The notes under the pieces are model-generated. The model did no database searches, had not been told where the DNA came from, and worked only from the letters and a program-made list of their open reading frames with translations. DNA of 64,000 bases from Ensifer adhaerens (GTDB lineage: Bacteria > Pseudomonadota > Alphaproteobacteria > Rhizobiales > Rhizobiaceae). Where the stretch lies: contig NZ_LAZS01000005.1 of NCBI RefSeq assembly GCF_002007205.1, forward strand, positions 62,001-126,000. Direction: 5' to 3'. The position numbers and the translations under genes are program-made. Position 1 is the stretch's first letter, and each line of letters opens with the position of its first letter. This document shows, one piece after another, positions 18,819 to 37,937 of this stretch.

Positions 18819-18890
18819 TGTTCTCCCTCGCTTTTCTGTCTGCCTGCCTGGTGGCCGATCTCCCCATCGACCATTGGCGTGCTTGTCTTG

Positions 18891-19053
18891 CCCCTCACCC
18901 TAGCCCTCTCCCCGCAGGCGGGGAGAGGGGACGCCTCTCATGCAGCGCAACGCTGCGGCCCTAAAACCGCTGCGACCTTTGGAGGAACGAGCGGTCACCG
19001 CTTGTCCCTTCTCCCCGCTTGCGGGGAGAAGGTTGCGGCAGCGGGATGAGGGG
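18891..19053. repeat. RIME-like composite palindromic element
   Basis: The element is bounded by CCCCTCA on the left and TGAGGGG on the right and contains two hairpins: CCCTCTCCCCGC-AG-GCGGGGAGAGGG at 18,904-18,929 and CCTTCTCCCCGC-TT-GCGGGGAGAAGG at 19,007-19,032. It lies between the dehydrogenase genes and fills most of that gap. Confidence 0.85.
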
Positions 19054-19084
19054 CCTTCGCCCGACATTGCCCGCTTTGGCGCAG

Positions 19085-20575
19085 TCAACGCTTCTGGCCG
19101 ACGAAGCGTCCGGCACCATCCGGCGTCGGCAGCTGTGCATGCGCTTGCGTGATCGCGCGGAGCTTGCTCAGCACCGCCTCGGGTGCCGCCACCGCCTTGC
19201 CGGCCTTGCTATCGACATGCAGCATCATCTGTTCGGCGGTCGCCACGGCCTCGTTGGTGGCCGCGTTGTAGATCGTCGAGAAGATGTGCAGGCGCTTTTC
19301 GTCCGACGACAGGATCTGGCATGTCGAATAGAGCGCCTCGCCGAGCTTGGCTTCGCCGAGGTTCCGGATATGGGTCTCGACCGTATAGTAGCTGTGGCCG
19401 TCGCGGACATAGTCGAGGTCGACGCCGATCAGACGCAGCACGCCGTCGGAGGTGTCGCCGAAGACCTGGAGATAGCGGTGCTCGGTCATGTGGCCGTTAT
19501 AGTCCACCCAGGCGGCGCTGACCTTGGTGTCGAGGATGCGCAGCGGCTTGACGTCGCCGAGGTTCGCTTCCGGCTTCTTCGCGTTGGCCCAGAGCTTGGC
19601 CTCGAAATCGGCAAGCAGCTTGCCCGCACCCCAGCCTTCGCCGCCATTACCGGATTTCAGTGCATGCATGATGCCGACGAGATTTTCGTCGCGGATGCGC
19701 TCGAGCTCGCGGATCGAGCGACCGGCGGCCTGCGCGTCCGATTGGGCGCCGATCTTTTCGACCAACGCATCGTCGAGGTCGACGACGTCGGTGAACTTCG
19801 TCCAGGGCCATTTGAGACACGGGCCGAACTGGGCGAGGAAGTGGCGCATGCCGGCCTCGCCGCCGGCGATGCGATAGGTCTCGAACAGGCCCATCTGCGC
19901 CCAGCGCATGCCGAAGGAGTAGCGCATGACGTTGTCGAGCGTTTCGGTATCGCAGATGTCGTCCTGGATTAGCCACAGCGCCTCGCGCCAGAGCGCTTCG
20001 AGCAGCCGGTCGCCGACGAAGGCCTCGATCTCCTTGGCGATGACGACGCCCTTCATGCCGATCTGCTCGACGCCCAACATGGCGCGCTCGATCGTCGCCT
20101 TCGACGTCTTCTTGCCGCCGACGAGTTCGACCAGCGGCAGCAGGTAGACGGGGTTATAGGGATGCGCCACGAACATGCGCTCGGGGTGGTGCATCTCGGA
20201 CTGCAGGTCGGAGGGAAGAAGGCCCGAGGTGGAGGAGCCGATCAGCGCATCGGGGCGCGCTGCCGCATCGATCTTGGTGATGACGCCGCGCTTCAGCTCC
20301 AGCCGTTCCGGCACGCTTTCCTGAATCCAGTCAGCACCTTCGACCGCTTCCTCGATGCTCTTGCAGAAGGTGAGTTTGCCCTTCGGCGGCAGCGGCGCCA
20401 TGGTCAGCATGGCATAGGCGCGCTCGGCATTGGCCATGACTTCGCCGATGATGCGTTCGGCTTCCGGATGCGGGTCGAAGATCTTCACGTCGATGCCGGC
20501 GAGCGCGAAGCGCGCCACCCAGGCGCCGCCGATGACGCCGCCACCGACACAGGCTGCTTTTTTGATTTCGGTCAT
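19085..20575 (-). CDS. L-carnitine dehydrogenase fused to a hot-dog thioesterase
   Basis: 496 residues in two enzymes. Residues 1-320 form a 3-hydroxyacyl-CoA dehydrogenase-like protein: NAD motif GGGVIGGAW at 10-18, catalytic His in FVAHPYNPVYLLPLVE, and the C-terminal helical domain. This subgroup oxidises L-carnitine to 3-dehydrocarnitine. Residues from about 345 are a 4HBT/hot-dog thioesterase (VSAAWVDYNGHMTEHRYLQV), in line with the betainyl-CoA thioesterase encoded separately as cdhB in Pseudomonas. Fusion would link the first and last steps of carnitine conversion to glycine betaine. The start has AGGTGAGGA immediately upstream. The next gene encodes the cleavage enzyme. Confidence 0.9.
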   Translation of the reverse strand: MTEIKKAACVGGGVIGGAWVARFALAGIDVKIFDPHPEAERIIGEVMANAERAYAMLTMAPLPPKGKLTFCKSIEEAVEGADWIQESVPERLELKRGVITKIDAAARPDALIGSSTSGLLPSDLQSEMHHPERMFVAHPYNPVYLLPLVELVGGKKTSKATIERAMLGVEQIGMKGVVIAKEIEAFVGDRLLEALWREALWLIQDDICDTETLDNVMRYSFGMRWAQMGLFETYRIAGGEAGMRHFLAQFGPCLKWPWTKFTDVVDLDDALVEKIGAQSDAQAAGRSIRELERIRDENLVGIMHALKSGNGGEGWGAGKLLADFEAKLWANAKKPEANLGDVKPLRILDTKVSAAWVDYNGHMTEHRYLQVFGDTSDGVLRLIGVDLDYVRDGHSYYTVETHIRNLGEAKLGEALYSTCQILSSDEKRLHIFSTIYNAATNEAVATAEQMMLHVDSKAGKAVAAPEAVLSKLRAITQAHAQLPTPDGAGRFVGQKR

Positions 20576-20607
20576 TCCTCACCTCGACTTCTAAAATTGC
20601 AAAACTG

Positions 20608-20717
20608 CCCCTCACCCTAACCCTCTCCCCGCAGGCGGGGAGAGGGGGCTGAGCGCCTTCGGCTTGCTGCCTTCTCCCCGTCTTGCGGGGAGAAGGTGCC
20701 GGCAGGCGGATGAGGGG
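20608..20717. repeat. RIME-like composite palindromic element
   Basis: This compact copy (110 bp) is bounded by CCCCTCA and TGAGGGG, with the hairpins CCCTCTCCCCGC-AG-GCGGGGAGAGGG and CCTTCTCCCCG-TCTTG-CGGGGAGAAGG. It lies between the cleavage-enzyme and carnitine dehydrogenase genes. Confidence 0.85.
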
Positions 20718-20762
20718 CGATTCCCCTCACCGTGAGGATAAGGGGCGCTCCCCTCGATCACT

Positions 20763-21665
20763 TCAGCGCTTCGTCAGCTTCAGTTTCTCGCGGACCTCTT
20801 TCGGTCCGATGATCTTGGCGCCCATGCCCTCGATGACGCCGACGGCTTTCTCGACGAGCTGGCCGTTGGTCGCAAGCTGGCCCTTGCCGATGTAGAGGTT
20901 GTCTTCGAGACCGACGCGAACGTTGCCGCCGGCAAGGATGGCTGCCGCCGGATAGGCGAGCGCGTTGCGGCCGATGGAGAAGGCCGAGAAGGTCCAGTTG
21001 GCGGGCACGTTGTTGACCATGGCCATGAAGGTGTTGAGGTCGTCAGGCGCGCCCCACGGAATGCCCATGCAGAGCTGGATCAAGACCGGGTCTTCGATCA
21101 GCCCTTCCTCGACCAGCTGCTTGGCGAACCAGAGGTGGCCGGTGTCGAAGGCCTCGATCTCGGGGCGAACGCCGAGCGCGGTCATCTGCCGGGCCATTTC
21201 CCGCAGCATAGACGGCGTGTTGGTCATGACGTAGTCGCCGAGCGAGAAGTTCATGGTGCCGCAGTCGAGCGTGCAGATCTCGGGCAGGCACTCTGCCACA
21301 TGGGCGACGCGCTCGGTGGCGCCAGCCATGTCGGTGCCCTTCTCGTTGAGCGGAAGCGGACTTTCGACATTGCCGAAGATGAGGTCACCGCCCATGCCGG
21401 CGGTCAGGTTCAGTACGATGTCGATATCGGCCGAGCGGATGCGATCGGTCACTTCCCTGTAGAGATCGAGCCTGCGGGCCGGCGCGCCGGTCTCCGGATC
21501 ACGAACGTGGCAATGGACGACGGCAGCGCCGGCCTTGGCCGCCTCGACCGCCGCTTCGGCGATCTGCTTCGGCGTGATCGGAACGTGGCTGGACTTTGAA
21601 ACGGTGTCTCCCGAGCCGGTGACGGCACAGGTGATGAATACCTCGCGGTTCATGCTGAGCGGCAT
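20763..21665 (-). CDS. BKACE enzyme, dehydrocarnitine cleavage (3-keto-5-aminohexanoate cleavage family)
   Basis: 300 residues of the beta-keto acid cleavage family. The zinc-binding HxH motif VVHCHVRDPETG lies at 49-60, with LDCGTMNFS and EAFDTGHLW further on. BKACE enzymes condense a beta-keto acid with acetyl-CoA; the carnitine-linked member converts dehydrocarnitine to betainyl-CoA and acetoacetate. The neighbour, carnitine dehydrogenase-thioesterase, makes this assignment likely. The ATG at 21,665 has GGGAGA 6 bases upstream; upstream in-frame codons lack that support. The gene is divergent from a GlxA-type regulator over a 108-bp promoter region. Confidence 0.88.
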   Translation of the reverse strand: MPLSMNREVFITCAVTGSGDTVSKSSHVPITPKQIAEAAVEAAKAGAAVVHCHVRDPETGAPARRLDLYREVTDRIRSADIDIVLNLTAGMGGDLIFGNVESPLPLNEKGTDMAGATERVAHVAECLPEICTLDCGTMNFSLGDYVMTNTPSMLREMARQMTALGVRPEIEAFDTGHLWFAKQLVEEGLIEDPVLIQLCMGIPWGAPDDLNTFMAMVNNVPANWTFSAFSIGRNALAYPAAAILAGGNVRVGLEDNLYIGKGQLATNGQLVEKAVGVIEGMGAKIIGPKEVREKLKLTKR

Positions 21666-21720
21666 TGCTGTCTCCCTTTTATTGCGCTCATTACGAGCCA
21701 AGAAAGGTCTCTCTGCTTTT

Positions 21721-21751
21721 CATTATCGGCTTCATCTTATACATTATCGGC
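21721..21751. promoter_or_regulatory. Two direct repeats of CATTATCGGC, candidate CdhR binding sites
   Basis: CATTATCGGC occurs at 21,721-21,730 and again at 21,742-21,751, a 21-bp period or two helical turns, in the promoter region between the divergent carnitine operon and its GlxA-type regulator. AraC-family proteins commonly bind such direct repeats. Confidence 0.5.
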
Positions 21752-21773
21752 GACAAGGCGGAGAAGTTTGGAC

Positions 21774-22745
21774 ATGGATCAGAACGTTTCGCAGGTGCAG
21801 CACGTCGATATCCTGGTCCTGCCGGAAACCAATCTGATCCTCGTCGCCTCCGTCATCGAGCCGATGCGCGCGGCCAACCGCATCGCCGGGCGCCCGCTCT
21901 ACGACTGGACGATCTTCAGCCCTGATGGCGCGCCGATCGAAACGAAGAGCGGCATCCCCATTCCGGTCTCAGGCGCCTTCCGGCCGCAGCGCGAGACGTC
22001 GCCGCTTTTCATCCTCTCGAGCTACAACTGGCGGCGCAGCGCCACTTCGCAATTGAAGATGATGCTGTCCCAGACCGCCCGGCACCGCGAGATGATGGCG
22101 GGCATCGAATCCGGCTCCTGGCTGCTGGCCGAAACCAGCCTGCTCGACACGTCCAAGGCCACCACACATTGGGAGGATTTCGAGGATTTCACCGCCACCT
22201 ACCCGCAGGTGACGATGGTGCGCGAGCGCTTCGTCATCGACGGCAAGCGCATCACGACAGGCGGCTCGCTGCCGACGCTCGACCTGATGCTGGAGCTCAT
22301 TCGCCGGGCGCATGGCTATTCGCTGGCGCTCGAAGTGTCGCGCCTGTTCATCTACGAGCAGGAGCGGACCCGCGGCGACCTCCTGCAAATGCCGGCGATC
22401 GGCAACATGCGCATCCTCGATCCGCGCGTGGGTGCTGCTGTCAAGCTGATGGAGGAAACGGTGGAGTTGCCGCTGACGCTGGCAAGGCTTGCTCGCCGCA
22501 TCGGCGTCAGCACCCGGCATCTTCAGGACCTCTTTCGCGACACGATGGGGGTTGCACCGCATGAGCACTACCTGGCGCTCCGTCTCAATGCGGCGCGGCG
22601 CAAGGTGATCGAGACGCGGATGGAATTTGCCGACATCGCCGCAATCTCCGGCTTCAACTCGTCATCCTCCTTCTCCCGCAGCTACCGGGCGCACTATCGC
22701 GAAAGCCCGAGCGAGACCAGGCGACGGCTGAAGCTGAAGGGTTGA
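21774..22745 (+). CDS. GlxA/AraC family transcriptional regulator, CdhR-like
   Basis: 323 residues. The N-terminal DJ-1/PfpI-like domain spans about 8-190 (VDILVLPETNLILVASVIEP), and the C-terminal AraC DNA-binding domain spans about 220-320 (LPLTLARLARRIGVSTRHLQ and FADIAAISGFNSSSSFSRSY). CdhR of Pseudomonas, an activator of carnitine catabolism, has the same architecture and gene neighbourhood. The ATG at 21,774 is preferred to the TTG at 21,768 because GGCGGAGAAG stands at a good distance. It probably senses carnitine and activates the divergent operon through the repeats at 21,721-21,751. Confidence 0.88.
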   Translation: MDQNVSQVQHVDILVLPETNLILVASVIEPMRAANRIAGRPLYDWTIFSPDGAPIETKSGIPIPVSGAFRPQRETSPLFILSSYNWRRSATSQLKMMLSQTARHREMMAGIESGSWLLAETSLLDTSKATTHWEDFEDFTATYPQVTMVRERFVIDGKRITTGGSLPTLDLMLELIRRAHGYSLALEVSRLFIYEQERTRGDLLQMPAIGNMRILDPRVGAAVKLMEETVELPLTLARLARRIGVSTRHLQDLFRDTMGVAPHEHYLALRLNAARRKVIETRMEFADIAAISGFNSSSSFSRSYRAHYRESPSETRRRLKLKG

Positions 22746-23058: not shown

Positions 23059-24237
23059 TCAAATCGGTGCGCTCATCTTCATCATCGCAATCATCAGTTC
23101 GCCGATCTCCCCGGCAAAGGCGCCGCGCGGCCAGACGAGGGTGAGCGATTGCCGGTAGGCTGGGCCGAGCCGGATCATCGCCGGCGGGAAGTGCACGCGA
23201 GCGAGCGAAGAGTGCGGCAGCACCGAGAGATAGCCGTGCTGGCAAACGAGGTTGATGATCACGGGGATGGAATCGACCTCGACGAGGGTGATGCGCCGCC
23301 GTTCGGTCTCGCTCAGCGTGTCGTCGAGGAAGCGCGCGGCTTCGCGCCGAAGCCCGCTCCTGACGCTCGGCACCGCGATCGGGCAGGCGGCAAGCAGCCG
23401 CGGCAGGTCGCCGCCGTGTTCGGAAAGGGCGGATGCCGGGCCGGCGAGCACCAGCGGCGTTTGCGACACCAGCCGGCCGTCACAATCCAAGGGGATCTCG
23501 GCGACATCGAGCAGGGCGGCATCGAAGCGGCGGCTGCGGAGACCGGCGAGCAGTTCGTCGGCAGTGGTGCTGGAGATGAACAGCGGCTGGCGCGGGCGGG
23601 TGCGGTGCCAGTTCGCCGTCAGGGTCGCGAGCATACGGGCGATTTCGCTTTCCGGGCCGAGCGGCATGACCGCGCCGAGCCGCCAGGTGGCGACGTCGCG
23701 GCGAAAGCGATCGGCGGAGGCGTGGGTCAGCCGCGCCCAGATATCGAGCAGGGCCTCGGTCAGCGGGATGACCCGTTCGGCGGTTGGCGTGCAAAGGATG
23801 CCGCCATGCGAGCGCTCGAACAGACGGCAGCCAAGGTGACGTTCGAGGTCCGCCATCTGCCGTGTCAGTTGCGGCTGGCCGAGACCGAGCGCCTTGGCCG
23901 TGGCGCGGATGCTGCCGGCGCGGGCGATGCGGACGAAGCGGTCGAGCGCGACGAGACCGATCGACGGTACGGGGGCCGTCGCCTCCTGTCCGACCTCTTC
24001 GAGAATGGCGGTGATCTTCATGGTCGCCTGCTGCACGTCGACGGCGCGCGCACGCGCTTCGAGCGTCACCACCAGCGCCGTTTCTTCCCGACGGAAGAGC
24101 GGCATGGAAATCGCCTGTTCGAAGCGCTTGACCGCGGCGCTGACACTCGACGGCGCTCGGCCGCAAAGGGTTGCGGCGCGACGAACGCCACCTTCGCGAA
24201 GCACCGCATCGACCAAGGCGATCGTTGCCATATCCAT
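23059..24237 (-). CDS. LysR-type regulator with two N-terminal HTH domains
   Basis: 392 residues, about 90 longer than usual LysR proteins. Residues 8-62 read as a LysR HTH (ALVDAVLREGGVRRAATLCG, then SSVSAAVKRFEQAISMPLFR). Residues 96-155 are a second, more canonical one (ALDRFVRIARAGSIRATAKA, then QLTRQMADLERHLGCRLFER). An effector-binding domain follows to the end. It is divergent from the ergothionase-like gene with 209 bp between the starts, so it probably controls that operon. The second of three ATGs (24,237) is chosen because CGGAG is then 8 bases upstream. A tandem HTH could bind extended or paired operators. Confidence 0.85.
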   Translation of the reverse strand: MDMATIALVDAVLREGGVRRAATLCGRAPSSVSAAVKRFEQAISMPLFRREETALVVTLEARARAVDVQQATMKITAILEEVGQEATAPVPSIGLVALDRFVRIARAGSIRATAKALGLGQPQLTRQMADLERHLGCRLFERSHGGILCTPTAERVIPLTEALLDIWARLTHASADRFRRDVATWRLGAVMPLGPESEIARMLATLTANWHRTRPRQPLFISSTTADELLAGLRSRRFDAALLDVAEIPLDCDGRLVSQTPLVLAGPASALSEHGGDLPRLLAACPIAVPSVRSGLRREAARFLDDTLSETERRRITLVEVDSIPVIINLVCQHGYLSVLPHSSLARVHFPPAMIRLGPAYRQSLTLVWPRGAFAGEIGELMIAMMKMSAPI

Positions 24238-24319
24238 TCCCATGACTCCGGACGCGGCACCATCACCCCGCGCGTTCTGAAATCCGCATCACCCGTTCCG
24301 GATTTGGGATATAGCACGG

Positions 24320-24446: not shown

Positions 24447-25985
24447 ATGCTGCACCAGGTCAAAACCACCGTTCTCTGCGGGAAACCGCTGGATTTCGCG
24501 ACGCTCGAGGATATCGGGGCGGGCAGGGTCCGACCGGTGGCGGACGAGGGCGGCATCGAGCGGGTGGCCGCCGCCCACAAGGTGGTTGCCGATCGTGTCG
24601 CGATGGGGCTTCCCGTCTACGGCTCCAACACCGGCGTCGGCTCGATGAAGGACCGGCTGTGGACCGCGGACGATCTTGCCGAGTTCAACAATGCGCTGGT
24701 CAGAGCCCATCATTTCGGCACCGGCGAATTCTTCGCGCCGGCGATCGTGCGCATGGCGATCGCCATCCGCGTCAACACTGCGATGCGTGGCCACACAGGC
24801 TGCAGCCCGGAGCTGATCCGGGCGTTTCTGGCGCTCAGCGAACACGACATCATTCCGGCGGTGCGCCGCCACGGCTCGATGGGCTGCGCCGATATCGGCC
24901 TGATGGGGCAGATCGCCTCGGTGCTGACAGGCGTCGGCGAGGCCTATTATCAGGGACGCCTCGTTTCGGCCGAGACGGCGCTCGCGGAGGCGGGGCTGAA
25001 GCCCTTCGTCATGCAGCCGCGCGACGCGCTGGCGGCGCTCAGCGTCAACGCCATTTCCTTCGCGGCGGCGGTCAACGTGCTGCGCGAGGCGGCGTCCGCC
25101 ATTCGGGTGTTGCTCGTCACCGGCGTCATGTCTTCTTTGGCGCTTGGCGCCTCGGCCGATCCCTGGCGGGTGGCGGCGACACTCTCGACCCGCGGCGAGG
25201 CGCTGGTCGGCTCCTGGCTCTATGGCCAATCCGGTGTTGCCGACTGGCCGGTGCCGACGGCGATTCATGATCCGCTCAGCCTGCGCATGACCGCCCAGGT
25301 CTTTGGCGCTGTCGTCGATACGCTGCTGGTCGCCGCCGGGCGGCTGGTGGAGCAGACCTATCTCTCCGACGACAATCCTGTTGTGATCGGTGGGCAGGTG
25401 CATTCCTCCGGCGCGTCGCTGCCATTGACGACGACGCTTTACATCGAGGCGGCGCAGATCGCCTTTTCCCATGCGGCGCGCAACGTCTTGAACCGCTGCA
25501 TCCTTCTCTCCAACGGCGGACGCCGCAATCTCTCGGTCAACCTGGTGGCGCCGGGGGAAGTCGCGACCGGGCTCGGGCCGCTGATGAAGCTCGCCGTCGA
25601 ACTCTACATGCGCGTGCAGTCGCTCGCCGTTCCGCTCTCGGCCCAGTCGATCGTGGTCGCCGGCGGGCTCGAAGAGGAGGCGACCTTCCTGCCGCTGATC
25701 GTCGAGCGCATGGAAACGCAGGTGCGGGATCTCCGCCAGCTTGCCGCCATCGAGGCGATGCTGTCGGCCCAGGCGATCGATCTCGTCGGCGACCAGCCGG
25801 AAGGGGTCGTCAAGCGCGCCTATGACCAGACGCGCTCGGTGAGCGCCATGTATCTCAAGGATCGGCCGCTCTCGAAGGAGATCGAGGCGCTGCAGGATGC
25901 GTTCACCTGCCACGACCTGTTGCGCTCCTTCGTCGCTTCAGCGCCGATGCCGGAGTTCGACGACTTCTTTGCGCTCGGTAAATAA
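24447..25985 (+). CDS. Ergothionase-like trimethylamine lyase (HAL/PAL fold, no MIO group)
   Basis: 512 residues of the aromatic amino acid lyase fold, the normal length for histidine ammonia-lyase. The catalytic Tyr loop is present (VYGSNTGVG, Tyr58). The MIO-forming segment, GSVGASGDLAP in HutH, reads GSMGCADIGLM here (residues 143-153), so the Ala-Ser-Gly triad is absent. The YSLR motif reads LSLR, and the HutH region NQEDHVSMG reads AQSIVVAGG. MIO is needed to expel ammonia, but not trimethylamine. Known ergothionases share this fold, lack MIO and convert ergothioneine to thiourocanate plus trimethylamine. The downstream genes supply the other four pathway steps. A lyase for hercynine or another betaine is the alternative. 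Confidence 0.82.
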   Translation: MLHQVKTTVLCGKPLDFATLEDIGAGRVRPVADEGGIERVAAAHKVVADRVAMGLPVYGSNTGVGSMKDRLWTADDLAEFNNALVRAHHFGTGEFFAPAIVRMAIAIRVNTAMRGHTGCSPELIRAFLALSEHDIIPAVRRHGSMGCADIGLMGQIASVLTGVGEAYYQGRLVSAETALAEAGLKPFVMQPRDALAALSVNAISFAAAVNVLREAASAIRVLLVTGVMSSLALGASADPWRVAATLSTRGEALVGSWLYGQSGVADWPVPTAIHDPLSLRMTAQVFGAVVDTLLVAAGRLVEQTYLSDDNPVVIGGQVHSSGASLPLTTTLYIEAAQIAFSHAARNVLNRCILLSNGGRRNLSVNLVAPGEVATGLGPLMKLAVELYMRVQSLAVPLSAQSIVVAGGLEEEATFLPLIVERMETQVRDLRQLAAIEAMLSAQAIDLVGDQPEGVVKRAYDQTRSVSAMYLKDRPLSKEIEALQDAFTCHDLLRSFVASAPMPEFDDFFALGK

Positions 25986-26028
25986 TTCTGGGCAAGTGAG
26001 CCAAACCTGACACCCCAGGGAGAACAGC

Positions 26029-27432
26029 ATGTCCGATTTCGATCTCGTTCTGAAAGGCACCGTCGTTCTCCCGCACCGGATCGTCGAAGGCGGCCATGTT
26101 GCCGTTCGCGACGGCAAGGTGGTGCATGTCGGCCAGGGTGCGGTACCGGCGGCGCGCGATCGGCACGATCTCGGCGATGCGCTGATCCTGCCGGGTGCCG
26201 TCGATGCACAGGTGCATTCGCTGTCGCAGAAGAACCAGGAGGATTTCATCTGGTCGACGCGCTCGGCGGCGGCCGGCGGGGTCACCACCATCGTCGACAT
26301 GCCCTATGACGAGGGCAATCTCGTCTGCTCTGCCGAAGCCCTTCGCCGCAAGATCGACCATGCGGGACCGCAGGCGCGCGTCGACTTCGCGCTCTATGGC
26401 ACCGTGGACCCGGAGGAGGGACCGGCGCGTATCGGCGAGATGGTGGAGGCGGGTGTCGCCGCCTTCAAGTTCTCGACCTTCGGCACCGATCCAAAGCGCT
26501 TTCCCCGCATTCCGGCAGCGCTTCTCGAAGACTGCTTCCGCGCCATCGCGCCAACCGGGTTGGCCGCCGGCGTGCACAACGAGGACGACGAGGCGGTGCG
26601 CGCGGCGATCGACAAGGTCAAGGCGGCTGGCATTGCCGACTACCGCGCCCATGGGCTGTCGCGTCCGCCGCTCACCGAACTGCTTGCCACCAACCAGATC
26701 TACGAGACGGGTGCCGCCACCGGCTGCCCGGCGCATGTGGTGCACTGCTCGCTCGGGCGCGGCTATGAGATTGCCGCCGCCTATCGCGCCCAGGGATACA
26801 AAGCGACGATCGAGTGCTGCATCCACTACCTGACGCTCGACGAAGAAAACGATGTTCGCCGTCTCGGCGGCAAGGCCAAGATCAACCCGCCGATCCGCCC
26901 GCGCGCCGAGGTGGAAAAGCTCTGGCGGCATGTGGCGGACGGTACGGTGACGATGGTTTCGACCGATCACGTGAGCTGGTCGGAGGACCGCAAGACCAAT
27001 CCGGATATGCTCGCCAATTCTTCGGGCGTGCCGGGGCTCGAAGTCATGGTGCCGCTCTTCGTCAAGGGCGCGTTGGAACGCGGCATCCCGCTGACGCGGG
27101 CGGCGGAGCTGATGACGCTGAACCCGGCCCGGCATTTCCGCCTGGATCACCAGAAGGGTGCGCTCGAAGCCGGCAAGGACGCCGATATCATCGTCATGAC
27201 GCCCGAGCCCTATGTCTATGACGCGTCGGCAAGCGGTCACAACGTCGTCGGCTGGTCGCCCTATAACGGCATCCGGCTGCCCTGGCGTGTGTCGGCGACC
27301 TATCTGCGCGGCAGGCTCGCCTTCGATGGTCGTCAGGTTTTGGCCGAGCCCGGCGCCGGACAGTTTGTCCGGCCGCTTGCGACCTTGGTACTGCAGAGCG
27401 GTTTTCCGCCCGCATCCCGGGTCGAGATCTAG
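26029..27432 (+). CDS. Hydantoinase-like cyclic amidohydrolase (dihydroorotase/dihydropyrimidinase family)
   Basis: 467 residues of the metal-dependent amidohydrolase superfamily. Visible ligands are Lys147 (VAAFKFSTFG, carboxylated bridging Lys), His183 (GVHNED), His239 (VVHCSLGRG) and Asp313 (STDHVSW). The first metal motif, usually HxH, is Gln61-Val-His63 (DAQVHSLSQ), a variant also seen in some dihydroorotases. These enzymes open hydantoin or dihydropyrimidine rings. In this operon the expected substrate is hydantoin-5-propionate, giving N-carbamoylglutamate. The gene starts 43 bp after the lyase stop and is followed by the carbamoylase after 8 bp. An allantoinase role is less likely. Confidence 0.82.
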   Translation: MSDFDLVLKGTVVLPHRIVEGGHVAVRDGKVVHVGQGAVPAARDRHDLGDALILPGAVDAQVHSLSQKNQEDFIWSTRSAAAGGVTTIVDMPYDEGNLVCSAEALRRKIDHAGPQARVDFALYGTVDPEEGPARIGEMVEAGVAAFKFSTFGTDPKRFPRIPAALLEDCFRAIAPTGLAAGVHNEDDEAVRAAIDKVKAAGIADYRAHGLSRPPLTELLATNQIYETGAATGCPAHVVHCSLGRGYEIAAAYRAQGYKATIECCIHYLTLDEENDVRRLGGKAKINPPIRPRAEVEKLWRHVADGTVTMVSTDHVSWSEDRKTNPDMLANSSGVPGLEVMVPLFVKGALERGIPLTRAAELMTLNPARHFRLDHQKGALEAGKDADIIVMTPEPYVYDASASGHNVVGWSPYNGIRLPWRVSATYLRGRLAFDGRQVLAEPGAGQFVRPLATLVLQSGFPPASRVEI

Positions 27433-27440
27433 GAAGCGTG

Positions 27441-28724
27441 ATGAGCAAAAGTGCCCACAACAAGGTTCCCGCCAACCTGCCGGTCAATGCCAGCCGTATC
27501 GCAGGAATCGTCAACGGTCTCGCGGGGATCACCGAACCGGACCGGCCCTATACGCGCCGCGCCTTCACGCCGCTGTTCCTCGAAGGCCGGGCCTTTCTCG
27601 ACCGGCGTTTTCGCGCGGCAGGGCTCGAAACCCGGATCGATGCCGCCGGCAACCTGATCGGCCGGCGCAAGGGGAAAAAATCGGCGCTCGGCACCATCCT
27701 GCTCGGCTCCCATTCCGACACGGTGCCGGATGGCGGCCGCTTCGATGGCATCGCCGGCGTGGCGGCGGCGCTTGAAGTGGCGCGCGCGCTTTCCGACAAC
27801 GGCATCGACCTCGACCACGATCTGGAGATCGTTGATTTCCTGGCCGAGGAAGTGTCGATCTTCGGCGTTTCCTGCGTCGGCAGCCGCGGCATGGCCGGTG
27901 TTCTGCCCGATGGGTGGCTCAGCCGCACGCAAGGGGATCTGAGCCTCAGGCAGGGTATCGTCGAGGTGGGCGGTGACCCCTCCAGGCTTTCCGGCTCGAA
28001 ACGCTCCGACATCAAGGCCTTCCTCGAACTGCACATTGAACAGGGGCCCATACTGGAGACTGGGCGGCTCGATGTCGGGGTGGTTACCGCCATCTCGGGC
28101 ATCACCCGCATCGAGATCATCGTCGAGGGCCAGGCGGACCATGCCGGTACGACTCCGATGGGGCATCGGCGCGATGCGCTGGTTGCCGCCTCGCATCTGG
28201 TGCTGGAGATCGAGCGGCTGGCGACAGAATTTTCTCACGGCGACGGGCACTTCACCGCGACCGTCGGCGAGTTTTCGATCGAGCCGAATGCGGCCAATGT
28301 GGTGCCGTCGAGGGTGCGGCTGCTGATCGATGCGCGTGCCGAGCTGCGTCCGCAAATGGAGCGGTTCCTGGCAACGCTTGGCTCCCTTTGCCAGGGTGTC
28401 GCCGAGGCATCTGATGTGACGATCGCGCCTGCCAATGTAATCTCGGACAACCACCCGACGCCGGGCGATCCGCTCCTGCTTTCAACGCTCGAAGAAAGCT
28501 GTGACGCGATCGGCGCCAAGCACCGGCGCATGGCCTCCGGTGCCGGCCACGACACCGCCTGGATGGGACGCATCACCCGCTCGGCGATGATCTTCATTCC
28601 CTGCCTCGGAGGGCGCTCGCATGCGCCGGAGGAGTGGGCAGAAAACGACGATATCGCGCTCGGCGCGGCCGTTCTCTTCGATGCGGTGAAGCGGCTCGAC
28701 AAGAAATTGCAGGAGAAGGTGTGA
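27441..28724 (+). CDS. M20 family N-carbamoyl-amino acid amidohydrolase, probable N-carbamoylglutamate hydrolase
   Basis: 427 residues of the HyuC/AllC-type M20 metallohydrolases. Metal and catalytic motifs are intact: GSHSDTVPDGGRFDG (His91, Asp93, Asp102) and FLAEEVSIFG (Glu136, Glu137), with the dimerisation domain giving HIEQGP and ADHAGTTPM. The family removes carbamoyl groups from N-carbamoyl amino acids, releasing carbon dioxide and ammonia. In this pathway the product would be L-glutamate. The ATG at 27,441 follows AGGAAGCG; the overlapping GTG three bases earlier is not needed. It is tightly packed between the hydantoinase and DUF917 genes, indicating one transcript. Confidence 0.85.
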   Translation: MSKSAHNKVPANLPVNASRIAGIVNGLAGITEPDRPYTRRAFTPLFLEGRAFLDRRFRAAGLETRIDAAGNLIGRRKGKKSALGTILLGSHSDTVPDGGRFDGIAGVAAALEVARALSDNGIDLDHDLEIVDFLAEEVSIFGVSCVGSRGMAGVLPDGWLSRTQGDLSLRQGIVEVGGDPSRLSGSKRSDIKAFLELHIEQGPILETGRLDVGVVTAISGITRIEIIVEGQADHAGTTPMGHRRDALVAASHLVLEIERLATEFSHGDGHFTATVGEFSIEPNAANVVPSRVRLLIDARAELRPQMERFLATLGSLCQGVAEASDVTIAPANVISDNHPTPGDPLLLSTLEESCDAIGAKHRRMASGAGHDTAWMGRITRSAMIFIPCLGGRSHAPEEWAENDDIALGAAVLFDAVKRLDKKLQEKV

Positions 28725-28725
28725 G

Positions 28726-29823
28726 ATGGGCCGGATACTGAAGGAAAAGGACGTCGAGGCAGCGGTCAAGGGCGGTTCCGTCTATGCCGCCGGGGGCGGC
28801 GGATGGGCCGATCACGGCCGCATGCTGGGATACGCTGCGGTCTCGATCGGCAAGCCGGAGCTCGTCTCGATCGATGAGCTCGATGCCAACGACTGGGTGG
28901 CGACGGCGGCCGCGATCGGCGCGCCGGCATCGACCACGCCCTGGGAGATGCGCGGCGTCGACTACGTCAAGGCGGTGCAACTGCTGCAGGAGGCGCTCGG
29001 CGAGAAACTTTCGGGGCTGATCATCGGCCAGAACGGCAAGTCCTCGACGCTGAACGGCTGGCTGCCCTCGGCGATCCTCGGCACCAAGGTGGTCGACGCG
29101 GTCGGCGACATCCGCGCGCACCCGACCGGCGACATGGGCTCGATCGGCCTTGCCGGCTCGCCCGAGCCGATGATCCAGACGGCGGTCGGCGGAAACCGCG
29201 AGGAGAACCGCTACATCGAGCTGGTGGTGCGCGGCGCCACGGCCAAGGTCTCGCCGGTCTTGCGGACCGCCTCCGACATGTCCGGCGGCTTCATTGCCTC
29301 CTGCCGCAATCCGGTCAGGGCATCTTACGTGAAAGCCAATGCGGCGCTGGGCGGCATCTCGCTGGCGCTGGCGCTCGGCGAGGCGATCATCGCGGCGGAA
29401 GCGAAGGGCGGCAGCGCGATCATCGACGCGATCGTCAAGACGACCAATGGCGCGATCCTCGCCGAGGGCACGATCACCGACAAATCGGTCGTCTATACCA
29501 AGGAAGCATTCGACATCGGCACGGTGACGCTGGGGAAGGGCGCTGACTCAACGGTATTGCACGTGATGAACGAATACATGGCGGTTGACTCTGGGGAAGG
29601 CACGCGGCTTGCGACCTTCCCCGACGTCATCACCACGCTGTCGCCGGAGGGCGAGCCTTTGAGTGTCGGGCAGCTGCAGGTGGGCATGAGGATCTTCGTG
29701 CTGCATGTGCCGAAGACGGTGATACCGCTTTCGTCCAGCGTGCTCGACCCGACGGTCTATCCGTCGGTCGAAAAGGCGATGGGCATCGAGCTTGCCCGCT
29801 ACGCGCTTTCCGGCCGGAACTGA
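28726..29823 (+). CDS. DUF917 family protein, probable thiohydantoin desulfurase
   Basis: 365 residues covering the whole DUF917 family: the glycine-rich start VYAAGGGGWADHGRML, LVSIDELDANDWVATAAAIG, and C-terminal LSVGQLQVGMRIFVLHVPK. Pfam now describes this family as S-methyl thiohydantoin desulfurase domains. In the reconstituted bacterial ergothioneine pathway a new enzyme type removes sulfur from a thiohydantoin between the hydratase and hydantoinase steps, and that is the step missing from the other genes here. The gene begins one base after the carbamoylase stop. There is no signal peptide. The sequence match to DUF917 is firm; the reaction is assigned from family and context. Confidence 0.8.
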   Translation: MGRILKEKDVEAAVKGGSVYAAGGGGWADHGRMLGYAAVSIGKPELVSIDELDANDWVATAAAIGAPASTTPWEMRGVDYVKAVQLLQEALGEKLSGLIIGQNGKSSTLNGWLPSAILGTKVVDAVGDIRAHPTGDMGSIGLAGSPEPMIQTAVGGNREENRYIELVVRGATAKVSPVLRTASDMSGGFIASCRNPVRASYVKANAALGGISLALALGEAIIAAEAKGGSAIIDAIVKTTNGAILAEGTITDKSVVYTKEAFDIGTVTLGKGADSTVLHVMNEYMAVDSGEGTRLATFPDVITTLSPEGEPLSVGQLQVGMRIFVLHVPKTVIPLSSSVLDPTVYPSVEKAMGIELARYALSGRN

Positions 29824-29835
29824 CGGGAGAGGACG

Positions 29836-30165
29836 ATGGCGCGCGATGCCGGACTGGAAGAGCTGATCCGCGAAGAACTCGGCGATCGCGCCGGGCTTTC
29901 GGAAAAGGCGATGTTCGGCGGCTGGGCCTATCTGCTGCACGGCAACCTGCTGCTCGGTGCGCGCGAGGGATCGCTGCTGGTCCGGCTCGGCAAGGGCAAT
30001 GACGGCTGGGCGCTGGCTCTGCCCGATATCGAGCTGATGGTGATGAACGGGCGGGCGATGCACGGCTGGGTGCGGGCAGGGGCGGATGCCTATGGCGATG
30101 ATGCCTTGCGCAAGCGGCTGCTCGCTGGCGCGATTGCCTTTGTCGAGACGCTGCCGCCGAAGTGA
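29836..30165 (+). CDS. TfoX N-terminal domain protein
   Basis: 109 residues matching the TfoX/Sxy N-terminal domain: LSEKAMFGGWAYLLHGNLLLG followed by LLVRLGKGND and MHGWVRAGADA. In other bacteria the domain occurs in competence regulators and in many small proteins of unknown role. It starts 12 bp after the DUF917 stop with GGGAGAGGACG before the ATG, so it is co-transcribed with the pathway genes. A function in sulfur or ergothioneine metabolism is possible but has no support beyond position. It lacks the C-terminal TfoX domain. Confidence 0.8.
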   Translation: MARDAGLEELIREELGDRAGLSEKAMFGGWAYLLHGNLLLGAREGSLLVRLGKGNDGWALALPDIELMVMNGRAMHGWVRAGADAYGDDALRKRLLAGAIAFVETLPPK

Positions 30166-30226
30166 GAATTGGTGGCTCGGCGATGGGCTGCGAAGTTTGG
30201 CCCTCACGCTTGAGTTTGGTGGTTTG

Positions 30227-30419
30227 CCCCTCACCCTAACCCTCTCCCCGCTTGCGGGGAGAGGGGACGAGATTGGCGGTCAGCCGCAGAGCATGTGGCA
30301 AGCGCTGAGCCATTCTCTCGCCCGACGCGGGACGAGGAAATGCCACGGTGGTTGGGCCGGCGCGGCAAGCACAACGCATCCCCTCTCCCCGCCTGCGGGG
30401 AGAGGGCTAGGGTGAGGGG
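30227..30419. repeat. RIME-like composite palindromic element in a 354-bp gap
   Basis: CCCCTCA at 30,227 and TGAGGGG ending at 30,419 bound this copy. Both internal hairpins are of the CCCTCTCCCCGC type, in opposite orientation. It sits between the TfoX-like gene and the urocanase-like gene and fills most of the gap 30,166-30,519, which otherwise shows only a ribosome binding site. Confidence 0.85.
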
Positions 30420-30519
30420 CCTTTGCCACCCGTCGCCACAAACGTGAGGGCGGCGACCTCCCGCCGCCGTGAATGATTGGGGCAACCACCCCGCCAACAC
30501 AACAACAAGGAACGAGACG

Positions 30520-32178
30520 ATGCCCAAGGCCAATCCCCGTCATCCTGGTTTCCCCATTCCCGGCGGGCCGGAGCTGCGTGCCAGGGGCTGGCGGCAGGAG
30601 GCGCTGCTGCGGCTCTTGGAAAACGTGCTTTCGGTCGGCGAGGATCCGGACAATCTCGTCGTCTATGCAGCCCTCGGCAAGGCGGCGCGCAACTGGCCGG
30701 CGCATCGCGCCATCGTCAAGACGCTGATCGAGATGGACGAGGACCAGACGCTGCTCATCCAGTCCGGCAAGCCGGTGGGGCTCTTGAAGACCCATGCCAA
30801 GGCGCCGCTCGTCATCATGGCCAATTGCAACATCGTCGGGCAATGGGCGAAGGCTGAGGTGTTCTACGAGCTGCAGCGCAAGGGGCTGATCTGCTGGGGC
30901 GGGCTGACGGCCGGCGCCTGGCAATATATCGGCAGCCAGGGGGTGATCCAGGGCACCTACGAGATCTTCATGCGCATCGCCGAACGCCGTTTCGGCGGCG
31001 ATCTCTCCGGCCGTTTCGTGCTGACGGCGGGGCTCGGCGGCATGGGCGGCGCGCAGCCGCTTGCCGGCCGCATGGCGGGGGCTGCCATTCTCTGTGTCGA
31101 CATCGACGCGGAGCGGGCGAAGAAGCGCCGGGAGATCGGCTATCTGCAGGAGATCGCGCCCGACCTCGATGCGGCACTGGCGATGATCGACGCGGCGGTC
31201 AAGGAGAAGCGGGCGCTCTCCGTCGGCCTCGTCGGCAACGCGGCGGAAATCTATCCGGAAATCGCACGGCGCGGCATCGTGCCCCATGTGGTCACCGACC
31301 AGACCTCGGCCCATGATCTTGTCTACGGCTATGTGCCGAAGGGCATGAGCCTCGACCAGGTGAAGTCGCTGCGCGACGACGGCCAGGGCCAGTTGATGGC
31401 GGCAAGCCGCGCCTCGATCGTCGAGCACGTCAAGGCGATGCTCGACTTCCAGGCGAAGGGCGCGGAAGTCTTCGACAACGGCAACCTGATCCGCACCCAG
31501 GCGCGCGAGGGCGGCGTCACCAATGCCTTCGACATCCCGATCTTCACCGAAGCCTATCTGCGCCCGCTCTTTGCCCGCGCCATCGGTCCGTTCCGCTGGA
31601 TGGCGCTTTCCGGTGAAGAGAGCGACATCGCCCGCATCGACGACCTGCTGCTCGACATATTTCCGCACAACAGGATCGTCACCAACTGGATCAGGCTCGC
31701 GCGTCAGCATATTCCCTTGGAAGGCCTGCCGGCGCGCATCGCCTGGCTCGGGCACGGGGAGCGCACGGCCTTGGCGCGGCGCGTCAACGAACTGGTGGCG
31801 ACAGGAGAGCTCAAGGGGCCGGTTGCTTTTTCGCGCGACCATCTCGACGCCGGCGCCATGGCGCATCCAAATATCATGACCGAGCGGATGAAGGACGGGT
31901 CGGACGCGATCGCCGACTGGCCGCTTCTCGACGCCATGCTGCTCTGCTCGTCGATGGCCGATCTCGTCGTCGTCCATTCCGGCGGTGGCGGCTATGCCGG
32001 CTACATGACAAGCTGCGGCGTCACGGTCGTTGCCGATGGCACGGTCGAGGCCGACGAACGGCTCGACCACGCGCTCACCAACGATACGTCTCTCGGTGTG
32101 ATCCGCTATGCCGATGCCGGCTATGAAGATAGTTTTGAGGAGATTGCCGCCAAGGGCATCGGGCATGTGAAGGTCTAG
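30520..32178 (+). CDS. Urocanase homologue, probable thiourocanate hydratase
   Basis: 552 residues, close to the 557 of Pseudomonas urocanase and alignable along its length. Shared landmarks are GLTAGAWQYIGSQGVIQGTY, the NAD+ loop LTAGLGGMGGAQPLA, FSRDHLDAGAMAHPN and MKDGSDAIADWPLLDAML. Two active-site changes separate it from HutU: the essential Cys410 of LPARICWLG is Ala408 (LPARIAWLG), and VHHGGGVGMG reads VHSGGGGYAG. Thiourocanate hydratases of the ergothioneine pathway are NAD-dependent relatives of HutU with such specificity differences. The start has AAGGAACGAG upstream. No HutI or HutG gene is nearby, which argues against ordinary histidine use. Confidence 0.82.
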   Translation: MPKANPRHPGFPIPGGPELRARGWRQEALLRLLENVLSVGEDPDNLVVYAALGKAARNWPAHRAIVKTLIEMDEDQTLLIQSGKPVGLLKTHAKAPLVIMANCNIVGQWAKAEVFYELQRKGLICWGGLTAGAWQYIGSQGVIQGTYEIFMRIAERRFGGDLSGRFVLTAGLGGMGGAQPLAGRMAGAAILCVDIDAERAKKRREIGYLQEIAPDLDAALAMIDAAVKEKRALSVGLVGNAAEIYPEIARRGIVPHVVTDQTSAHDLVYGYVPKGMSLDQVKSLRDDGQGQLMAASRASIVEHVKAMLDFQAKGAEVFDNGNLIRTQAREGGVTNAFDIPIFTEAYLRPLFARAIGPFRWMALSGEESDIARIDDLLLDIFPHNRIVTNWIRLARQHIPLEGLPARIAWLGHGERTALARRVNELVATGELKGPVAFSRDHLDAGAMAHPNIMTERMKDGSDAIADWPLLDAMLLCSSMADLVVVHSGGGGYAGYMTSCGVTVVADGTVEADERLDHALTNDTSLGVIRYADAGYEDSFEEIAAKGIGHVKV

Positions 32179-33933: not shown

Positions 33934-34695
33934 TCACACCACCGTCTCGCCGCCATCCACCACCAGGATCTGGCCGGTCATGTAGGAGGAGCGGTCGGAG
34001 ACGAGGAAGAGGATCGACTCGGCGATCTCGTCGACGCTGGCCCAGCGGCCGAGCGGCACTTTTTCGCGGATATAGGATTCGATTGCGCCGCGGCCGCCCA
34101 TCTGGGCGATGAAGGGTTCGTTGAAGGGGGTGTCGACCCAGCCGGGGCAAAGCGCGTTGACGCGGATGCCGTGGCGGGCGTAGTCGCCGGCCATCTGCTT
34201 GGTCATGGCGATGACCGCGTGTTTGGTGGTCGTATAGGCGATCATCTCGCGGTCGTAGAGCACGCCCGAGGATGAGGAGGTGTTGAGGATGACGCCGCGG
34301 CCGGCGGCGCGCATCGACGGCATGACCAGCCGCGCTGCCATGAAATGGGCGCGGACATTGAGGTTCCAGGAGCGGTCGAAGCCGGCGACCTCGACCTCTT
34401 CCAGGTCCCCCGCGACCTGGGCACCGGCATGATTGTGCAGGATGTCGATGCGGCCGTGGCGATAGAGGATATCGGCGACGCCATCGGAGAGAGCCGCGTC
34501 ATCCGTGACGTCGATTGCGAGCGCCTCAGCGCTGCCGCCCTTTTCGGCGATCGCCTCGACGGCGGTTGCAGCTGCCGCAAGGCTGCGGTCGACGACGACG
34601 ACGTGGGCGCCCTCGCGCGCCATGATGGCCGCACCCGCCTGACCGATCCCGGAGCCCGCTCCGGTCACGATCGCGACCCGGTCTTTCAGGATCAT
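33934..34695 (-). CDS. Short-chain dehydrogenase/reductase (SDR)
   Basis: 253 residues of the classical SDR family: NAD(P) motif TGAGSGIG at 11-18, an Asp at the end of strand 2 (VVVVDRS) favouring NAD, the NHAG variant of the NNAG motif, the catalytic Ser in NTSSSSG and the YTTTK pair. It follows the second permease gene of the Pot-type importer by 4 bp and has GGGGAG ahead of its ATG, so it belongs to that operon and may oxidise the imported compound. The substrate is unknown; 3-hydroxy acids and polyols are common for this subgroup. Confidence 0.9.
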   Translation of the reverse strand: MILKDRVAIVTGAGSGIGQAGAAIMAREGAHVVVVDRSLAAAATAVEAIAEKGGSAEALAIDVTDDAALSDGVADILYRHGRIDILHNHAGAQVAGDLEEVEVAGFDRSWNLNVRAHFMAARLVMPSMRAAGRGVILNTSSSSGVLYDREMIAYTTTKHAVIAMTKQMAGDYARHGIRVNALCPGWVDTPFNEPFIAQMGGRGAIESYIREKVPLGRWASVDEIAESILFLVSDRSSYMTGQILVVDGGETVV

Positions 34696-34699
34696 GGTT

Positions 34700-35518
34700 T
34701 CACTCCCCGGATTTCGTTTTCTTTTCCCGCATCAGGATGCGGGCGGTCAGGATCAGAAGCAGCGAGGCGACGAGCACCAGCGTCGCGATCGCGTTGATCT
34801 CGGGCGTCACGCCGCGGCGGATCGAGGCGAAGACGTAGATCGGCAGCGTGGTCTTCGAGCCCGCGACGAAGAAGGCGATGATGAAATCGTCGAAGGAGAA
34901 GGTGAAGGCCAGAAGAAAGCCGGCAAGGATCGACGGCAGGATTTGCGGCAACACGATCAGCCGGAAGGTGGTGAGCGGCGTTGCGTAGAGATCGCTCGAG
35001 GCCTCGACGATATCGCGGCCGAGGCTGGCGATGCGGGCCTTCACGATCATCGTCACCAGCGCCATCGAGAACAGGCCGTGAGCGGCGATGATCGAGCCGT
35101 AGCCAAGGCCGAGCTGCGGCGGCTGGTCGCCAGGCCAGATCGTTGCCAGCGCCGGGTTGACGAAGGAGAAGACGGCAACGAGCGCGACCAGCGTCGCGAT
35201 GCCGATGACGACGCCGGGCACGACGATTGCGGCTGCAAACAGCGCATCGAAGATCGCCCGGTTGCGCGGCGCCATCCGCTCCATGCCAAGGGCTGCCATG
35301 GTGCCGAAGATTGCGGCGAGCGTGGCGCTGGTAAAGGCGATCAGCAGGCTGTTCTGCAGCGCCGAAACCAGGAAGGTATTTCCAAGCGCCTTGCCGTACC
35401 AGGCGGTCGAAAACCCGGTGAACTCGCTCGCATTGCGTCCCGCATTGAAGGAGAACAGGACGACCAGCGCGATCGGGGCGTAGAGGAAGAGATAGACGGA
35501 GGAGATGAAGGCGCGCAT
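34700..35518 (-). CDS. ABC transporter permease, PotC/PotI type
   Basis: 272 residues of the BPD_transp_1 family with six predicted membrane segments beginning FISSVYLFLYAPIALVVLFS and ending VLVASLLLILTARIL. The EAA-type loop is EASSDLYATPLTTFRLIVLP (about residues 180-199). It is the second permease of a spermidine/putrescine-type importer. The start overlaps the previous stop as TGATG, so translation is coupled. The transported compound cannot be read from the permease. Confidence 0.92.
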   Translation of the reverse strand: MRAFISSVYLFLYAPIALVVLFSFNAGRNASEFTGFSTAWYGKALGNTFLVSALQNSLLIAFTSATLAAIFGTMAALGMERMAPRNRAIFDALFAAAIVVPGVVIGIATLVALVAVFSFVNPALATIWPGDQPPQLGLGYGSIIAAHGLFSMALVTMIVKARIASLGRDIVEASSDLYATPLTTFRLIVLPQILPSILAGFLLAFTFSFDDFIIAFFVAGSKTTLPIYVFASIRRGVTPEINAIATLVLVASLLLILTARILMREKKTKSGE

Positions 35519-36384
35519 CAGACGAGATCCACCTGTCTTGTGCCGGCGACGCGGAAGGCGATGCGCATCGCCACCATCAGGATCACCACGACGACGGCAA
35601 CCAGCGTGACGGCGATCGCCGAGCCGAAGGGCCAGTTTCGCGATTGCAGGAAGAGATCGACCAGCGCATTGCCGATGAAGAAGACCTTGCCGCCGCCCAA
35701 GAGCTGTGGGATCAGATATTCGCCGAGCAGCAGGATCGTCACCAGCGCCACGCCGGTCATGACACCGGGCAAGGAGAGCGGCAGGGTGACGCCGAAGAAG
35801 GTCGAGACCGGCTTGGCGCCGAGATCGGCGGAGGCTTCGAGCAGGCGGCGGTCGAGTTTTTCAAGGCTGACATAGATCGGCATGATCATCAGCGGCAGGT
35901 AGCCGTAGACGATGCCGAGAAGCACGGCGCCCGGCGTGTTCAGCATCCTGACGTCCTCGATGCCGATCATCGAGAGCAGATTGGGGATCCCGCGCGAGCC
36001 AAGAATGTACATCCAGGCATAGGTGCGCACGAGCAGGCTCGTCCAGAAGGGCACGACGACGAGCGACACGAGGATCAGCCGGTAGCGCGGGTTCGCCTTG
36101 ACCGCCAGATAATAGGCGACCGGATAGGCGATCATCAGGCAGGCGAACGCGCCGACCGGCGCGAGGATCAGCGTGTTCCAGAAAGCCGCCGCACGCGTCG
36201 GCAGGTTGGCGAACTGGGCAAAGGTGAAGGCCGCCTGATAGCCGCCTTCCGGTGCGCGTTCGCCGAAGGCGAAGACCAGCATGGCGATGAAGGGCAGCAC
36301 GAGGAAGATCATCAGCCAGGCGGCAGCCGGCGCCACCAGCGCCGCCGTCACCAGGTTTCTCTTCGTGTTCGTCGCCGCGGTCAT
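35518..36384 (-). CDS. ABC transporter permease, PotB/PotH type
   Basis: 288 residues from the ATG at 36,384; an upstream in-frame ATG at 36,516 lies in the repeat-side leader and is less likely. The first membrane segment is ALVAPAAAWLMIFLVLPFIA, and the coupling loop is EASADLGAKPVSTFFGVTLP. It pairs with the PotC/PotI-type protein encoded next. The ribosome binding site is weak. The 322-bp gap before it carries a repeat element, which may lower permease output relative to the binding protein. Confidence 0.9.
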   Translation of the reverse strand: MTAATNTKRNLVTAALVAPAAAWLMIFLVLPFIAMLVFAFGERAPEGGYQAAFTFAQFANLPTRAAAFWNTLILAPVGAFACLMIAYPVAYYLAVKANPRYRLILVSLVVVPFWTSLLVRTYAWMYILGSRGIPNLLSMIGIEDVRMLNTPGAVLLGIVYGYLPLMIMPIYVSLEKLDRRLLEASADLGAKPVSTFFGVTLPLSLPGVMTGVALVTILLLGEYLIPQLLGGGKVFFIGNALVDLFLQSRNWPFGSAIAVTLVAVVVVILMVAMRIAFRVAGTRQVDLV

Positions 36385-36706
36385 GTGGTTATCCGTTTGA
36401 GTGTCACTTGTATTTCGGTTTTCCCTCAGGGCGGCGAGGGAGCCCGTCATCCGCGCGGTGAGGTGAGCTCCCCATCCGCACGCTAAGGGAAGCCCCTCAT
36501 CCGGCCTGCCGGCCACCTTCTCCCCGCTTGCGGGGCGAAGGGGACTTGTGGCGCCCGCTCGGTCCCTCTCTTCCGGCAGAAGCGAGGGGCAGGGAGCCTG
36601 CCGTTTGTCCCTTCTCCCCGTCAGAACGGGGAGAAGGTGCCGGCAGGCGGATGAGGGGCCATGCCCAGACCGCGCGGGTCACCGCGTGGGGCAGTCACAT
36701 GCCAGA
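36385..36706. repeat. 322-bp gap with a RIME-like element (36,493-36,658)
   Basis: CCCCTCA at 36,493-36,499 and TGAGGGG at 36,652-36,658 bound two hairpins: CTTCTCCCCGC-TT-GCGGGGCGAAG (one mismatch) and CCTTCTCCCCGT-CAGA-ACGGGGAGAAGG. The element separates the binding-protein and permease genes of one operon. No gene is supported. Confidence 0.8.
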
Positions 36707-37867: not shown

Positions 37868-37937
37868 GACGCTGTTCCCTTTATCGTTTGACGTTCATGC
37901 GTAGGCGGCAGAACCGGCTTGATAAGGCCGGGAGATT

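Follow-up and report, generated by a model that had tools for sequence, protein, structure and literature searches.

Two proteins encoded close together on a contig of Ensifer adhaerens are homologues of the histidine-utilisation enzymes HutH and HutU, yet one lacks the electrophilic 4-methylideneimidazole-5-one (MIO) group and the other an essential cysteine, which raises the question of what such a cluster would degrade. Here, we analysed a 64,000-nt stretch of contig NZ_LAZS01000005.1 (assembly GCF_002007205.1; the window), in which the cluster occupies positions 24447–32178 and which an earlier reading of the letters alone (the original prediction) had described as a complete route from ergothioneine to glutamate. 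We consider it very probable that this cluster is an operon for catabolism of the antioxidant ergothioneine, leading in five steps to glutamate, because curated family models, relatives of solved structure, fold ranking, signature residues, a recurring gene order and the co-occurrence of the genes all point to the same pathway. The five-step assignment is well supported, and is as good as sequence alone permits.

The pathway is a known one, and for four of the five enzymes in the cluster a current model already supplies the name. A five-step bacterial route was reportedly reconstituted in vitro by Beliaeva, Leisinger and Seebeck in 2021, and the chemistry set out below follows that account, together with the NCBIfam names and the original prediction. 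All five enzyme families of that route are also present here in one run, to which the window adds a TfoX_N-domain protein and a neighbouring LysR-type regulator with two helix-turn-helix (HTH) domains. PMC9732360 references the 2021 pathway paper.

Gene content and proposed reactions

All six open reading frames (ORFs) of the cluster lie on the plus strand where the original prediction had placed them, and the six gene types that it had named agree with their Pfam families. The features of the locus are as follows.

23059–24243, minus strand: LysR-type regulator with two HTH_1 domains (Pfam HTH_1 in two stretches, LysR_substrate), divergent from the lyase gene
24447–25985, plus strand: putative step 1, ergothionase-type lyase without MIO (Pfam Lyase_aromatic, PF00221, 5e-79; related to 6S7J)
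26029–27432, plus strand: predicted step 4, ErtD, hydantoin-5-propionate amidohydrolase (NF058538; Pfam Amidohydro_1)
27438–28724, plus strand: predicted step 5, ErtE, N-carbamyl-L-glutamate amidohydrolase (NF058540; Pfam Peptidase_M20)
28726–29823, plus strand: predicted step 3, thiohydantoin desulfurase of the DUF917 type (NF058529; Pfam S-Me-THD_N and S-Me-THD_C, which we take to be the current names of DUF917)
29836–30165, plus strand: TfoX_N-domain protein of 109 amino acids (PF04993, 31.3 bits, cut-off 30.1)
30226–30420, no strand: intergenic palindromic repeat element with 42-nt inverted arms that are 93% complementary
30469–32178 (ORF), plus strand: predicted step 2, thiourocanate hydratase, a HutU homologue (NF058530; best match in the Protein Data Bank (PDB) 7NED)

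The first five genes, from the lyase to the TfoX_N protein, are separated by 43, 5, 1 and 12 nt and may be co-transcribed. The hydratase, which contains three urocanase domains by Pfam, probably starts at the ATG at 30520 instead of the ORF start, because the relative at locus L057 has a methionine at the matching place, as read by eye.

In this strain, the reactions would presumably proceed in the following order. The MIO-less lyase would convert ergothioneine, the presumed substrate, to thiourocanate and trimethylamine, and the HutU homologue would hydrate thiourocanate to a thiohydantoin propionate, whose sulfur the DUF917 protein would exchange for oxygen with release of sulfide. ErtD would then open the hydantoin ring to give N-carbamoyl-L-glutamate, from which ErtE would produce L-glutamate, carbon dioxide and ammonia, while the divergent two-HTH LysR protein would be the probable control element of the operon. 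If expressed, the cluster would open the carbon, nitrogen and sulfur of soil ergothioneine to such bacteria.

Enzyme families and competing substrates

Families were called with the equivalog models of NCBIfam release 20.0 and their curated cut-offs (scores are given as bits/cut-off). The enzymes of steps 2 to 5, four of the five, exceed the cut-offs of the models for exactly these steps, namely the hydratase (NF058530, 1049.3/930), the desulfurase (NF058529, 603.8/440), ErtD (NF058538, 799.3/600) and ErtE (NF058540, 599.9/520). A second ErtD model remains below its cut-off (382.6/650), and a model named ‘Zn-dependent hydrolase’ (NF009531, 686.6/486) outscores that of ErtE.

The nearest solved structure to the hydratase is 7NED (814 bits, 5.9e-244), deposited as ‘urocanate hydratase’, which we take to be the thiourocanate hydratase of the pathway, and the next is a urocanase (615 bits). 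The motifs SAHDLVYGY, FDNGN and HSGGGGYAGYMTS are common to the window protein and 7NED, and differ from those of the urocanase 1X87 and of the genome's own HutU. The catalytic cysteine of urocanases is absent, as the original prediction had stated, and is replaced by alanine (RIAWLG, versus RICWLG in 1X87 and RICWVG in the own HutU), whereas 7NED has glycine there. Across an alignment of 111 rows, this position is alanine in 108 (the window protein being included twice, as WIN and L001, both among the 108), glycine in 7NED, and cysteine in the two urocanases only.

For the lyase, the best PDB match is the ergothionase of Treponema denticola (6S7J, 183.9 bits, 5.7e-53), ahead of a probable histidine ammonia-lyase (HAL; 134.0 bits). 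A structure model built from 27 sequences reached a mean predicted local distance difference test score of 87.7, with low confidence at residues 400–412 and around 141–150, the place where MIO would be expected. In a Foldseek search with this model, three 6S7J chains ranked 1–3 with template modelling scores of 0.88–0.89 at 27–28% identity, followed by HAL at 0.87; the fold ranking thus helps the assignment, but its margin over HAL is small. The absence of MIO claimed by the original prediction is traceable to a one-residue deletion, through which the tripeptide ASG is lost (GSMGC-ADIG versus GSVGASGDLA). The window lyase shares its fold, this deletion and the motifs DPLS[LF]R and DDNP with the T. 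denticola ergothionase (6S7J, 6S7Q). Four catalytic residues of the T. denticola enzyme are reported to be essential. A search with the lyase through 30 hydratase-bearing genomes gave 25 strong matches (E<=6e-85), all of which (25/25) carry the same one-residue deletion, as does 6S7J. Among the weaker aligned matches, five HutH-like proteins retain ASG, while two (L035 and L091) have lost it by other routes and were assigned to neither group; a fragment, L094, was left out of the alignment. In the tree, all 26 pathway lyases group together in a single clade (support 100/100). According to PMC13405746, ergothionase lacks MIO; organisms with an identified ergothionase are also named there.

Given that the lyase is a HutH homologue and the hydratase a HutU homologue by Pfam, and that the hydratase also passes the general HutU model (686.9/375), the cluster might be taken for a duplicated histidine-utilisation (hut) cluster acting on histidine and urocanate. 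We reject this as extremely improbable, because MIO and the urocanase cysteine are missing, the HutH models score far below cut-off on the lyase (201/539 and 210/524), and the same genome has its own HutH elsewhere, on contig C2 (730.6/539), near a cysteine-bearing HutU; a desulfurase and a hydantoinase are, besides, foreign to hut. A cluster devoted to S-methylated ergothioneine has hardly any greater claim: the NCBIfam models of the S-methyl hydratase (NF058531) and S-methyl desulfurase (NF058532) do match the window proteins, but both remain below cut-off (731.2/880 and 285.2/450) where the non-methyl models pass, and on these cut-offs the S-methyl pathway, too, is rejected as having next to no probability.

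A preference of the lyase for a different histidine betaine (ergothioneine sulfonate or hercynine, for instance), with the remaining genes serving a related product, is likewise very unlikely. The T. denticola ergothionase is said to take the sulfonate as well, which speaks for this alternative, but the downstream genes belong to thiourocanate and thiohydantoin families, which require the thione sulfur, and the lyase and hydratase co-occur tightly. Also in its favour, a bacterial ergothioneine sulfonate pathway is referenced, for Agrobacterium radiobacter, in PMC13405746.

Distribution, gene order and the importer question

The assignment to ergothioneine catabolism is further supported by the distribution of the genes, for which we used 397 genomes of the host's order and 398 genomes of its phylum. 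In the order sample, the hydratase scores above cut-off in 29/397 genomes, and its scores fall into two groups, at least 977 bits and at most 720 bits, with two exceptions, both incomplete matches (848 bits in G355, 765 bits in G367). The lyase is found at E<=1e-50 in 29/397 genomes as well, and the two occur together in 26 (Fisher p 3e-34, uncorrected for relatedness). The phylum sample contains the hydratase above cut-off in 6/398 genomes, all from the same order as the host. When 20-kb stretches (shorter at contig ends) were taken around 30 hydratase places, the order ErtD, ErtE, desulfurase, hydratase was repeated in most of them, with members missing in L042, L045, L055 and L057, and in 22 of the 25 other genomes that have both, no more than 9 kb separates the lyase from the hydratase.

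We also examined the best 80 of 261 loci that carry named relatives of the lyase, scoring a gene as present at >=30% identity over 40% of the query. The desulfurase is present in 79 of these 80, ErtE and ErtD in 78 each and the hydratase in 77, while LysR is found in 59, the carnitine dehydrogenase described below in 51 and TfoX_N in 50. The hydratase is absent from L116 and L167 owing to a contig end, and the L150 locus probably lacks it in its own right. All 80 loci are alphaproteobacterial by name, mostly from Ensifer/Sinorhizobium, Rhizobium and Shinella; given this shared origin, they are not independent. The nearest named relatives of the lyase, at 96% identity, are from Ensifer strains, and the clusters of Ensifer, Sinorhizobium, Rhizobium, Shinella, Martelella and Devosia have the gene order seen here, with lyases 53–96% identical. 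The cluster places ergothioneine catabolism in the Ensifer and Rhizobium lineage.

Several observations weigh against this assignment. The lyase passes no NCBIfam model and is only 27–28% identical to its verified relative 6S7J, the T. denticola protein being the sole verified ergothionase in the tree; there, the placement of 6S7J beside the pathway clade and apart from the HutH branch is weak (support 91/80), with long branches, that of 6S7J among them, meeting at this point and flagged by the tree program. Three genomes have the hydratase without the lyase (G207, G294 and G236), three others the lyase without a hydratase above cut-off (G119, G182 and G257), and in 3/25 genomes with both the two lie apart, by 18 kb in G288, by 94 kb in G359 and on another contig in G282. 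TIGR03105, the sole model tried as a possible lead to methylamine use, gave no match above cut-off. The cluster itself has no importer, neither between the lyase and ErtD genes of the window, which are 43 nt apart, nor elsewhere in it, and a candidate elsewhere in the genome, described below, has homologues beyond the lyase-positive genomes. The description of the cluster as complete therefore stands for all five enzymes and fails for an importer.

The naming of the genes presents a similarly divided picture. The original prediction expected automatic annotation to label them as histidine utilisation or to leave them unnamed, which does not apply to the four enzymes that NCBIfam 20.0 names and does apply to the lyase. 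That release has no name for this lyase, which may therefore be undercounted in surveys that rely on automatic names. Of the three plasmid relatives that share more than 50% identity with the lyase, one carries the label ‘aromatic amino acid ammonia-lyase’, another falls where no gene is listed and the third comes from a record without annotation.

In related genomes, an importer is often part of the locus. An OpuAC-type binding protein is encoded next to the lyase in 19/25 other lyase-positive genomes, and permease and ATPase genes precede ErtD where the stretches of importer-bearing genomes show them. Among the best 80 of the 261 loci, a betaine-type ATP-binding cassette (ABC) importer lies between the lyase and ErtD in 6; the Martelella and Devosia clusters have one at this place, unlike the window. 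The host genome encodes a homologous OsmF-like ABC system on contig C2, with a binding protein above the cut-off of the OsmF model (507.7/400). The structures closest to this protein are of the glycine-betaine type, and EgtU is matched only at about 2e-30; identity to the lyase-adjacent proteins is 70–80% for 18 relatives and 61% for G288. Such a protein is found in 26/29 lyase-positive genomes but also in 58/368 lyase-negative ones, and because of the latter we do not assign the system as a relocated ergothioneine importer and regard it as a candidate only. A second set of ABC genes, of the PotD type, lies at 34700–39020, convergent with the cluster, and is retained nearby in part of the relatives (PotD in 15 and PotI in 24 of the best 80 of 261 loci). 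These genes, too, were not assigned as the pathway importer, their binding protein resembling polyamine-binding proteins. Beside them stands a short-chain dehydrogenase (33934–34695).

The two-HTH regulator, lyase-less loci and neighbouring elements

Anything new to be learnt here could come from the regulator and the loci without a lyase. The LysR-type protein has its two HTH_1 stretches in tandem, together with a LysR substrate domain. From 110 loci we extracted 64 matches to it, 56 of which extend over both HTH regions with an identity of at least 33% (the poorly extracted L096 being among the 56). The fraction of sequences with the majority residue is 0.69–0.73 for residues 21–60 and 0.66–0.73 for residues 101–140; both HTH regions are therefore kept. 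The mutual likeness of the two halves is not significant. This divergent protein probably controls the operon. No title on a two-HTH LysR or on a Rhizobiales ergothioneine cluster stood among the literature matches listed, which is no proof of absence.

The three lyase-less loci (L042, L045 and L057, from G207, G294 and G236, respectively) contain the hydratase and the desulfurase. ErtD and ErtE are above cut-off in all three genomes; in G207 and G294 they are adjacent to each other but at a distance from the hydratase; in G236, the hydratase has ErtD but not ErtE beside it. Ergothionase was not found in these genomes, where no match to the lyase is better than 5e-41, nor was a close OsmF-like binding protein of the C2 group. 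ABC importer genes are present near the hydratase in all three, the binding protein of G236 belonging to family 3. Regulator homologues 25–43% identical to that of the window stand beside each lyase-less hydratase, and Pfam finds two HTH_1 stretches in these as well as in the homologue of G367. We tentatively propose, without quite leaning towards it, that the two-HTH LysR protein is a thiourocanate sensor of unusual architecture and that steps 2 to 5 operate alone in some bacteria (G207, G294 and G236), which would scavenge thiourocanate from ergothioneine degraders in a form of soil cross-feeding. G294 encodes another MIO-less lyase, the aforementioned L091, which might substitute for step 1; since it could serve as the lyase, it counts against thiourocanate scavenging in that genome.

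Within the cluster, the TfoX_N protein barely exceeds its Pfam cut-off, contains no cysteine when its sequence is read by eye and, being present in 50/80 loci, is not essential to the cluster. In the 50 loci that have it, the gap between it and the hydratase ranges from -32 to 437 nt (tblastn coordinates). In the window, the repeat at 30226–30420 precedes the hydratase gene, and each of its arms contains a 26-nt palindrome. A second intergenic repeat made of 26-nt palindromes lies at 18904–19032, and we presume that both are of the kind called RIME in rhizobia.

Directly upstream (17658–22745) lie genes for a carnitine 3-dehydrogenase (over cut-off), a BKACE protein, an acyl-CoA dehydrogenase and a GbdR-like AraC regulator (under cut-off); the carnitine 3-dehydrogenase is the gene found near the cluster in 51 of the 80 loci. 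Elsewhere, on contig C1, the genome encodes a third HutH homologue (L179:9754-11247), which lacks ASG, scores below the HutH cut-offs (468/524 and 457/539) and adjoins hutF, hutC and ProV/ProX-like ABC genes. The substrate of this protein might be a histidine betaine, hercynine for example, with the product entering the hut pathway.

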